Positions 28,883 through 37,190 of a DNA stretch of 64,000 nt are shown one piece after another (position 1 is the first letter of the stretch; every line of letters starts with the position of its first letter). Position numbers and translations under genes: made by a program. Under the pieces are notes generated by a model. The model ran no database searches, was not told the DNA's origin, and saw only the letters and a list, made by a program, of their open reading frames with translations. Origin of the DNA: SAR86 cluster bacterium AG-422-O05 (GTDB lineage Bacteria; Pseudomonadota; Gammaproteobacteria; Magnimaribacterales; D2472); contig QCMW01000001.1 in the NCBI GenBank assembly GCA_003213495.1, positions 310,001-374,000 of the forward strand, given 5' to 3'.

Positions 28883-28919
28883 CCTTTATCTTATCAATTA
28901 ACTAAACTATACTTATTTT

Positions 28920-29088
28920 ACATTCTGGTTCATTAGCTAATGTGTTAATAAATTTGAACCGATACTATTAATAAGGTGATTTTCCACTGTCATTGTTGTG
29001 CGGTACCTTATAGGGAAGCCTGATTTGACATGATGTTCACCACCTGAACTTTCGGTTCAGGTATAACACATAGCGGTGATCTGGTTTG
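28920..29088 (+). ncRNA. ssrS: 6S RNA
   Basis: GAAGCCTGATTTGACATGATGTTCACCACCTGAACTTTCGGTTCAGGTATAACACATAGCGGTGATCTGG parallels the 3' half of E. coli 6S; closing stem CUGGUUCAUUAGCUAAUGUGUUA / UAACACAUAGCGGUGAUCUGG; zapA-ssrS-fau synteny; -10 TATACT at 28908-28913. Confidence 0.92.
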
Positions 29089-29106
29089 CTAGCCTCTGCA
29101 TTATTT

Positions 29107-34223: not shown

Positions 34224-34748
34224 TTATAAAAGCTCTTCTATTTGTTTTGTAAGCTCAGGCGAATCAGGCTTTATTTTTGAGCCATATTTATATATCTGTT
34301 GGCCATCTCTTGAAATAAGGTATTTATTGAAATTCCATGATGGCTCTTCCCCAGATGCAGCAATAAGTTTTTTGTACAAGGGACTGGCTTTGTTACCTCG
34401 AACTTTGGAAGTAGCAAACATTGGAAAGTTTACTCCATACTCGGTTGAACAAAATTCGGCAACATCTTCTTCACTGGAGTATTCCTGAAAAAAATCTCTC
34501 GAGGGGACACCAAGTACTACAAAACCTTTATCTTTATACTTTTCATAAAGACCTTGAAGTGATGCATATTGATATGTATAGCCGCATCTACTTGCTACAT
34601 TTACAACCAAAACAACCTGATCTTCATATTCGCATAAATTTACAGTATCAGATGAATCTAATACTCGCATCTCAGTATCTAAAATATTTGAGCATGCGAA
34701 TGAATAGGATGTAACAAATATAAGAACGTAGAGTTTGATGCCTTTCAT
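34224..34748 (-). CDS. btuE: Glutathione peroxidase
   Basis: VNVASRCGYTYQYASLQGLYEKYKDKGFVVLGVPSRDF; WNFNKYLI. Confidence 0.93.
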   Translation of the reverse strand: MKGIKLYVLIFVTSYSFACSNILDTEMRVLDSSDTVNLCEYEDQVVLVVNVASRCGYTYQYASLQGLYEKYKDKGFVVLGVPSRDFFQEYSSEEDVAEFCSTEYGVNFPMFATSKVRGNKASPLYKKLIAASGEEPSWNFNKYLISRDGQQIYKYGSKIKPDSPELTKQIEELL

Positions 34749-34755
34749 GAGTTTT

Positions 34756-34842
34756 TTAAGAGATAGGTGTTATTGCTGATAAAGAGGTAATAAAAATTGT
34801 GATTAAAAAAAGTATTTCTATATTATCTCTAAATTTGTTCAT
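34756..34842 (-). CDS. Candidate 28-aa membrane peptide / leader ORF upstream of btuE
   Basis: ATG...TAA: MNKFRDNIEILFLITIFITSLSAITPIS; upstream AGG (SD-like) 8 nt before ATG; 7-nt gap to btuE start. Not in ORF track. Confidence 0.45.
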   Translation of the reverse strand: MNKFRDNIEILFLITIFITSLSAITPIS

Positions 34843-34859
34843 AAAATAAACCTAGCTTT

Positions 34860-34887
34860 AAAAGATTGGAGGGACAAAGCCCTCCAA
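34860..34887 (-). terminator. Intrinsic terminator-like hairpin in the btuE leader
   Basis: Minus strand TTGGAGGG-CTTTGT-CCCTCCAA-TCTTTT: perfect 8-bp stem followed by U-rich tail. Confidence 0.7.
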
Positions 34888-34933
34888 ATTCCAGAGTGTC
34901 AGCAAAATTAATAGGGGAGAGGAGTGCTGACAT
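34860..34933 (-). ncRNA. Candidate ~73-nt leader RNA or sRNA (C-rich loop hairpin plus terminator)
   Basis: TGTCAGCA/TGCTGACA inverted repeat at 34897-34904/34925-34932 with loop CTCCTCTCCCC...; terminator downstream; promoter upstream. Confidence 0.55.
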
Positions 34934-34938
34934 TAATT

Positions 34939-34966
34939 ATTATACTTATTTATAATTAATTATCAA
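34939..34966 (-). promoter_or_regulatory. Sigma70-like promoter for the btuE leader RNA
   Basis: Minus strand TTGATA - 16 nt - TATAAT. Confidence 0.7.
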
Positions 34967-35036
34967 TAGTATTTATAAAATAAAATGTTTTTTTTTATGT
35001 ATAATGATTTTTTAATTTAAATTTTGGAGAATTACT

Positions 35037-37190
35037 TTGAAAGGCACTGTTTTATATGAAGTTAGGGATGATGTAGCAATACTTACTGTTGATAACCCAC
35101 CTGTTAACCCTTTAAGTGATGGAGTTAGAAATGGTTTGTATGAATCAATTGTAAAAGCCGAAGAAGATTCTGATGTAAAAGGCATAGTTTTGACCGGAAA
35201 TGGTAGAGCTTTTATTGCAGGAGCTGATATCTCAGAATTTGGTGGCAATGTAGAAGGAAAGAGTCTTAATGAAGTATTTAGAAAATTAGAGTTCTGCGAT
35301 AAGCCCGTAGTTGCTGCAATTAATGGAATTGCATTAGGTGGAGGGCTTGAAACAGCTTTATGTTGTAATTATAGAATTGCTGATATTAATGCATTTGTTG
35401 GTTTGCCTGAGGTGAATTTGGGGCTTTTGCCAGGCGGTGGAGGAACACAAAGACTTCCAAGATTAACAGGTCCTAGCGAAGCTCTTAAAATGATGCTTAC
35501 AGGATCTCATGTGCCAGCTAAAAAAGCCTTAAATATGGGCATAGTAGACCAAATTTCTGAAAATATTCTAGAAGATTCAATTGAATTTGTTAAAAATATT
35601 GCTTCTGAAACTGATGCTCATCCTAAAGTAAGGGATAAAAATGACAAAATGCTTGAAGCTAAAAGTAATGATAATGTTATGGTTGAGGCTCAAGCAATGG
35701 CAGCTAAAGGCAGGAAAGGTCAATTTGCCCCTGGTCAAATAATAAAATGCGTAGAGGCGGCAATTAATCTTGATGATTTTGATGAAGGTTTAAAAAAAGA
35801 GGGTGAATATTTTCTTGAGTGCCTAATGCACCCTCAAAGAGAAGCTATGATTCATATCTTCTTTGGTGAAAGAGCTGCATCAAAAATTTCTGATGTTCCA
35901 AAAGATACAAAAATCATGGATATTAAAAAAGCTGGCATCATTGGATCTGGAACTATGGGTGGTGGTATAGCAATGTGTTTTGCGAATGCTGGCATTCCTG
36001 TTCATATCATTGATCAAGATGAAGAAAACTTAAAAAGAGGTATTTCTGTTATTGAAAAAAACTACGATTTTATGGTTAATAAAGGAAAGTTAACTAGTGA
36101 GCAAAAAGATTCGGTATTTGGTCTCGTAACATCCAGTCTTAATTATTCAGATATTTCTGATTGCGATATAGTTATTGAAGCAGTATATGAAAATCTAGAA
36201 TTAAAACATGAAATATTTAAGGCTTTAGATCAACACGTAAAACCTGAGGCAATACTCGCAAGCAATACATCTGGATTAGATATAGATTCTATAGCATCAA
36301 TTACATCAAGACCTGAAAAGATAGTGGGTACTCACTTTTTTAGTCCAGCTAATATAATGAGATTGCTTGAAGTCGTTAGAGGAGAACAAACATCGAATGA
36401 GACTTTAGCCACCATTATGGCAATAGGTAAAAAACTAAAAAAAGCTGCTGTGGTATCTTTAAACGCTCCAGGTTTCATTGGCAACAGAATGTTGTTTGGT
36501 TATACAGCACAAGCAAATATGCTTTTACTTGAAGGCGCCCTGCCCCATCAAATTGACCAAGCTTTAGAATCTTTTGGACTAAACATGGGTCCATTTAGAA
36601 TGATGGATCTTGTTGGATTAGATTTAGGTTGGAGGGCTAGAAAGTTAAGTGGAAAAGAATCACCATTACACGCAAAAATTGGAGATGAGCTTTGTGAGCA
36701 AAATAGATATGGTCAGAAAAGTGGTGCAGGTTATTACAATTATTCAGAGGGATCCCGTGCACCTAATCCAGCTCCTGAGAATGAAGCAACATATGAAAAA
36801 ATATCCTCGGAAAATGGTTTTACAAGACGAGACATAACGGATGAAGAAATTGTTGATAGATGCATTCTTGCATTAATCAATGAAGGTGCTGATATTTTAT
36901 CTGAGGGTGTTGCTCAACGAGCAGCAGATATAGATGTTGTATACATTAATGGATATGGTTTCCCAATTTGGAGAGGCGGTCCAATGCATCACGCTAATGC
37001 ATTGGGACTTGAAGTTGTTATAGAGAAGCTTGAAAAATACAAAGAAATTACGGGCAGTGATGTATATAAACCAAGTGAGATGTTACTTAAACTAGCTAAA
37101 GATGGACTGAAGCTTGGAGAAGCACCTAGCAAGGAAGAAAGAAAAGAAAAATTAGGCTTTGAGATGTCATCTGTTGCAAACAATTTCTAA
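35037..37190 (+). CDS. Bifunctional enoyl-CoA hydratase / 3-hydroxyacyl-CoA dehydrogenase (FadJ/FadB-like), TTG start
   Basis: Crotonase AFIAGADISEFGG; GIIGSGTMGGGIAMCFANAG NAD-binding; THFFSPANIMRLLEVV. Confidence 0.95.
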   Translation: MKGTVLYEVRDDVAILTVDNPPVNPLSDGVRNGLYESIVKAEEDSDVKGIVLTGNGRAFIAGADISEFGGNVEGKSLNEVFRKLEFCDKPVVAAINGIALGGGLETALCCNYRIADINAFVGLPEVNLGLLPGGGGTQRLPRLTGPSEALKMMLTGSHVPAKKALNMGIVDQISENILEDSIEFVKNIASETDAHPKVRDKNDKMLEAKSNDNVMVEAQAMAAKGRKGQFAPGQIIKCVEAAINLDDFDEGLKKEGEYFLECLMHPQREAMIHIFFGERAASKISDVPKDTKIMDIKKAGIIGSGTMGGGIAMCFANAGIPVHIIDQDEENLKRGISVIEKNYDFMVNKGKLTSEQKDSVFGLVTSSLNYSDISDCDIVIEAVYENLELKHEIFKALDQHVKPEAILASNTSGLDIDSIASITSRPEKIVGTHFFSPANIMRLLEVVRGEQTSNETLATIMAIGKKLKKAAVVSLNAPGFIGNRMLFGYTAQANMLLLEGALPHQIDQALESFGLNMGPFRMMDLVGLDLGWRARKLSGKESPLHAKIGDELCEQNRYGQKSGAGYYNYSEGSRAPNPAPENEATYEKISSENGFTRRDITDEEIVDRCILALINEGADILSEGVAQRAADIDVVYINGYGFPIWRGGPMHHANALGLEVVIEKLEKYKEITGSDVYKPSEMLLKLAKDGLKLGEAPSKEERKEKLGFEMSSVANNF

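Follow-up and report, generated by a model that had tools for sequence, protein, structure and literature searches.

A predicted trans-acting small RNA gene upstream of btuE in SAR86 bacteria, with a C-rich loop that co-varies with a candidate target site

The element that precedes a btuE-like glutathione peroxidase gene on the minus strand of a 64,000-nucleotide stretch of DNA (hereafter the window) from SAR86 cluster bacterium AG-422-O05 is very probably the gene for a trans-acting base-pairing small RNA, the loop of which would target the ribosome-binding site of a gene for a 72-aa membrane-type protein. The initial annotation had presented the element as either an attenuator or an sRNA leader. 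The latter part of that proposal stands, in that we found a conserved and covarying unit of promoter, structured RNA, and terminator that also occurs as stand-alone copies, whereas the attenuator and its antiterminator are not supported by the comparisons described below.

The promoter consists of a −35 hexamer, TTGATA (34961..34966), which is kept in both main and stand-alone copies, and a −10 hexamer, TATAAT (34939..34944), separated by a spacer of 16 nt. It scores 11 of 12 matches, is the sole minus-strand sigma70-like site between 34700 and 35100, and points to a transcription start at about 34932. The predicted small RNA of about 73 to 75 nt (34860..34932, minus strand) comprises hairpin A, a linker, and hairpin B. 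Hairpin A (34897..34932) is formed by the stem arms TGTCAGCA (34932-34925) and TGCTGACA (34904-34897) and presents a 20-nt C-rich loop, CTCCTCTCCCCTATTAATTT, within which lies the predicted seed CUCUCCCCUAUUA (34909..34921). Hairpin B and its T tail (34860..34887) have the form of an intrinsic terminator, TTGGAGGG-CTTTGT-CCCTCCAA-TCTTTT, with arms at 34887-34880 and 34873-34866 and the TCTTTT at 34865-34860; a terminator scan of 34700-35100 returned this single site versus 0.1 expected. The ATG of a 28-aa ORF on the same strand (34756..34842), which codes for the small hydrophobic protein MNKFRDNIEILFLITIFITSLSAITPIS, lies at 34842, 17 nt past the terminator tail, and is followed by the btuE-like gene for a Cys-type glutathione peroxidase (34224..34748, minus strand; PF00255, E value 1.9e-28). 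The promoter, both hairpins, and the 17-nt distance had been described in the initial annotation, and each is present as described, with exact coordinates. The 79-nt RNA folds with −23.4 kcal/mol versus −12.4 ± 2.6 kcal/mol for shuffled sequences (z = −4.3; 0 of 200).

Rfam covariance models did not match the element at the gathering score, and a relaxed threshold gave only chance-level scores. The window's only Rfam match at the gathering score is a 6S RNA (RF00013, 56 bits) at 28919-29091 on the plus strand. Further candidate features in this region were rejected: the arms of a palindromic operator between the −35 and −10 hexamers are no more complementary than column shuffles (1448 of 5000), and a 34-aa ORF spanning the element (34829-34933), which would support a peptide-coding reading, lacks its ATG in several relatives.

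Both hairpins persist in close relatives, one of the points on which the initial annotation had staked its proposal, with a DNA search recovering the element in 31 of the 34 genomes of the genus. Across 30 aligned copies from the genus, GTCAGCACTCCTCTCCCC, TGCTGACA, and GGAGGG/CCCTCC are invariant, and the terminator loop and the linker are variable. A covariance model (R1) detected the element in 95 of 108 genomes of the family f1, covering 10 of 10 genera and 18 of 19 high-quality genomes, and a broader model (R2) did so in 18 of the 19 genomes searched from a second family, f4. The 57 GTDB stretches with the 21-base core are all from SAR86 or are titled only gammaproteobacterial or proteobacterial, including SAR86A. 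We infer that f1 corresponds to D2472 ("Suzuki") and f4 to TMED112 (CHAB-I-7); as the D2472 and TMED112 clades have a common origin (PMC11582366), the sRNA would date to the ancestor of f1 and f4 if these family names hold.

Sequence comparisons across genera revealed compensatory forms of stem A, namely, GTCAGC/GCTGAC, GCTAGC/GCTAGC, ACCAACA/TGTTGGT, and CATCAAC/GTTGATG. Changes on both sides were seen at 14 of 15 stem pairs, with 65 such cells versus 14.8 ± 3.2 in shuffles (0 of 500); the underlying MAFFT alignment was not fitted to structure, no slid version of it comes near this value, and a second test agrees. Family-wide, every stem pair of hairpin A and 6 of 7 pairs of hairpin B show compensatory changes. 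Within the genus alone, covariation is uninformative, the stems being invariant. While the stems change, the core of the loop, UCUCCCC(C)UAU, is retained, and the loop is among the most conserved parts of the element. The compensatory stems and the constant loop core together establish that both hairpins are selected RNA structures and that they present the loop. The unit is thus a C-rich loop on a covarying stem within a short structured RNA, with a promoter and an intrinsic terminator of its own as recognized by sequence.

The main copies in f1 are flanked by divergent fadB/fadJ and by an ORF of 25 to 33 aa, then the peroxidase, then convergent rpiA; in this family, the small ORF follows almost all main copies examined, and btuE lies downstream of every one. 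The f4 copies are likewise followed by a small ORF, with the peroxidase and rpiA nearby in 3 of 3 cases tested. In the genus, the small ORF shows codon-position variation of 0.134/0.060/0.346 and 3217 synonymous versus 1385 nonsynonymous differences. On the basis of this pattern, we count it as a real gene under purifying selection that codes for a small hydrophobic protein; searches of Pfam and NCBIfam placed its product in no family. Stand-alone copies of the element occur in the genera g2, g8, and g9. They have the promoter, loop, and terminator of the main copies but neither the mini-ORF nor btuE, and most of them are located where a convergent exonuclease-like gene ends. Their occurrence under the same promoter suggests that the RNA is an independent unit; the best reading is an autonomous small RNA with a promoter in common with the mini-ORF/btuE operon. 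The U tract is interrupted in the main copies, with about 5.4 T in 9 nt versus 6.3 in the stand-alone copies. Barring a promoter that escaped notice, the mini-ORF and btuE can be expressed only by read-through, and the terminator is therefore probably leaky. The initial annotation had invoked such read-through into btuE, and this is likely, given that no other promoter was seen and the gap is 17 nt, but we found no support for the conditional termination that it had coupled to it.

Candidate trans targets were sought by running two seed patterns over the whole of the own genome and inspecting the matches for plausible ribosome-binding sites. Among those inspected, AACCUAAUAGGGGGGAGUUAUUAUG, in front of the gene for the 72-aa membrane-type protein downstream of pnp, was by far the best, forming 13 contiguous pairs with the seed CUCUCCCCUAUUA, one of them G-U. 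The predicted target site, UAAUAGGGGGGAG, lies on contig 1 at about 123692-123705 (minus strand). It ranked first among 474 sampled own-genome genes, a sample that includes the target and was drawn with the target already known, at −22.8 versus a mean of −6.8 (standard deviation 3.8; 4.3 standard deviations). These own-genome statistics derive from pattern searches and sampled stretches. Genome-wide, there is no excess of seed-complementary sites for either seed (42 versus 36 in the control and 71 versus 59), and hence the case rests on specific sites. The target gene was found in 95 of 108 f1 genomes and 10 of 10 genera. It is one of a tandem pair of membrane-type genes of a single family, coding for proteins of 72 and 78 aa (L129, 1276-1494 and 987-1223, both minus strand), which occurs downstream of pnp in SAR86 f1, f4, and parts of f2 and f3. 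Neither protein matched a Pfam or NCBIfam family, and a PDB fold search with a model of the 72-aa protein (pLDDT 74) gave no significant match.

The G-rich site at this distant mRNA start co-varies with the loop. In g1, g8, and g9, a target UAAUAG accompanies a loop CUAUUA; in g5, g7, and g10, CAUAG accompanies CUAUG; and in g6, CUAAAUAGGGGGAG and CUCCCCCUAUUUAG form 14 Watson-Crick pairs. Pairings within the own genus are stronger than shuffled ones (−20.6 versus −18.6 kcal/mol; 123 of 200,000, P about 0.0006; P = 0.002 by length), with these P values being approximate because the permutation treats related genera as exchangeable. The G-run site doubles as a strong Shine-Dalgarno sequence, and selection on translation could explain part of the match; a flank-only test, which uses bases outside the C run and G run and excludes the Shine-Dalgarno core, answers this partly, with P about 0.0003 when f4 is included and 0.003 in f1 alone. 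The f4 site was predicted in advance as GUCAUGGGGG and then found as UUUCAUGGGGGAGA. The match is poorer in places: in G191, a genome of f4, CCCCCAAAGG faces UUUCAUGGGGG with about 7 bp only; pairing is confined to the core in g2, g3, and g4 as well as in a few genomes of g1; and changed target sites in G023 and G033 pair poorly. In g2, sequence comparison showed a closer match to the target, CCUAUAGGGGGG, for the stand-alone copy, CCCCCUAUAU, than for the main copy.

As an alternative, the element could be a btuE attenuator in which GGAGGG is bound by loop A, forming an antiterminator, and the choice between termination and read-through depends on a peroxide, ligand, or protein signal. This reading draws on the terminator 17 nt before the first ORF with no other minus-strand promoter seen, on the main copy always standing ahead of the mini-ORF and btuE, and on the 6-bp loop-arm pairing, which exists as the initial annotation had stated. 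However, that pairing yields −8.4 kcal/mol versus −12.1 kcal/mol for the terminator, before any pseudoknot cost, and is thus not competitive in stability as an antiterminator. Moreover, the loop-arm complementarity is kept in the stand-alone copies of g2, g8, and g9, which have no downstream operon, so that the element is not always in cis to btuE; nor does attenuation predict a loop flank that tracks a distant ribosome-binding site. We consider the attenuator unlikely, and the conservation of the loop appears better explained by trans pairing with a co-varying ribosome-binding site than by attenuation.

It is very unlikely that the RNA acts instead by binding a protein, as a CsrA/ProQ-type sponge or site with CUGGA in the linker. 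The linker CUCUGGAA is conserved in the f1 main copies, as such a role would suggest, but it is missing from the stand-alone and f4 copies, in which the C-rich loop stays; furthermore, only a single GGA lies outside the terminator, and the co-variation of loop and target favors base pairing. Most improbable is that the hairpins are a leaky terminator only, fixing a low level of btuE with the short RNA as a functionless by-product, since this would fit the interrupted U tract of the main copies but neither the high conservation of a loop unneeded for termination nor the covarying stem A, the stand-alone copies, and the co-variation with the target.

Under the base-pairing sRNA hypothesis, the sigma70-type promoter would drive synthesis of an approximately 75-nt two-hairpin RNA ending at the second hairpin as an intrinsic terminator, with part of the transcription probably reading through into the gene for the mini membrane protein and btuE. 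The C-rich loop, CUCUCCCC(C)UAU(N), would then base-pair with the G-run ribosome-binding site of the 72-aa gene behind pnp, covering it and thereby blocking ribosome loading and lowering translation; repression is the outcome that we favor, with activation being possible. Hfq (PF17209) was not detected in any of 57 family genomes of at least 80% completeness, in a search that gave matches in 5 of 14 control genomes. This suggests that the pairing, in which a loop would contact a single-stranded site, is probably Hfq independent. The operon link suggests coinduction with the peroxidase, through which the sRNA might be coupled to peroxide stress.

TonB-dependent receptor mRNAs that carry G-run sites probably constitute additional, weaker targets. 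In the own-genome sample, ribosome-binding sites with at least five Gs precede 3 of 478 nonreceptor genes (the target being one) versus 3 of 6 TonB-dependent receptor genes. The receptor genes of the genus (L413-L441, L457) mostly have a run of 5 to 8 Gs in the ribosome-binding site, and G-run sites were present in 26 of 29 receptor genes in a selected set, the loci having been retrieved through their similarity to a single such gene. In the samples from f2 and f3 genomes, from which no btuE-linked sRNA was recovered, such sites precede 0 of 5 receptor genes, these being small numbers. These observations suggest a wider regulon including TonB-dependent receptors as a lead rather than a result. 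A DmdA/GcvT-like gene (L141, 1512-2816, plus strand), which scores 262 bits with the DMSP demethylase model, below its cutoff of 410, has the ribosome-binding site AGGGGGGAAUU and is a weaker possible target. More speculatively, and on balance doubtfully, one Hfq-independent sRNA could be the envelope regulator of D2472/Suzuki and TMED112/CHAB-I-7 (both names as inferred above), repressing the pnp-linked protein and TonB-dependent receptors via G-run sites and being switched on together with glutathione peroxidase and the mini membrane protein. If true, this would couple oxidative defense to nutrient uptake.

SAR86 ranks among the bacterial groups that are most abundant in the surface ocean (PMC11582366), and we found no description of a SAR86 small RNA in the open-access literature, most subscription journals being outside our coverage. 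The present analysis yields an sRNA family with a covariance model and a specific co-varying target, as well as a hypothesis for how sRNA regulation might persist in streamlined, apparently Hfq-less genomes, possibly acting on the TonB receptors, which are predominant in their uptake. It also indicates that sRNA targets can be identified without culture from the co-variation of loops and ribosome-binding sites in uncultured genomes.

Matches of the covariance model in f2 and f3 proved to be terminators of other genes, except for a very similar C-rich hairpin, GTCAGCATCTCTCTCCCCTGAAAATTGCTGAC, situated in f2 (g14) in the interval that separates polA from an engB-like gene in convergent orientation (L271, 1501-1568, plus strand; also L272, L102, and L103), which has no Rfam match and is possibly the ancestral form. 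The polA-engB interval is the position of Spot 42/ErsA, and any homology of the hairpin to that class would be putative; the f1/f4 element is found at btuE instead. Among characterized RNAs, sX13 of Xanthomonas (PMC3771888) carries C-rich loops on stable stems and represses, independently of Hfq, mRNAs with G-rich motifs near their translation starts. However, it measures 115 nt, carries three C-rich loops, and acts on many targets, whereas the SAR86 RNA is about 75 nt long, with a single C-rich loop and a single target that co-varies strongly; no family relation between the two was detectable, the SAR86 element having no Rfam match. In RepG of Helicobacter pylori (PMC8295292), a C/U-rich loop pairs with a G run in an mRNA leader; there, it is the terminator loop that meets a length-variable G repeat, while in SAR86 the loop of the first hairpin would meet a fixed run of five to six Gs inside the ribosome-binding site. 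Finally, the SmelA075 and SmelA099 sRNA models of Rhizobiales (PMC3927594) have CCUCCUCCC anti-Shine-Dalgarno loops on hairpins with more variable stems. These belong to other bacteria and have three or four anti-Shine-Dalgarno hairpins, in contrast to the single hairpin, with the loop UCUCCCCCUAU, of the SAR86 RNA.
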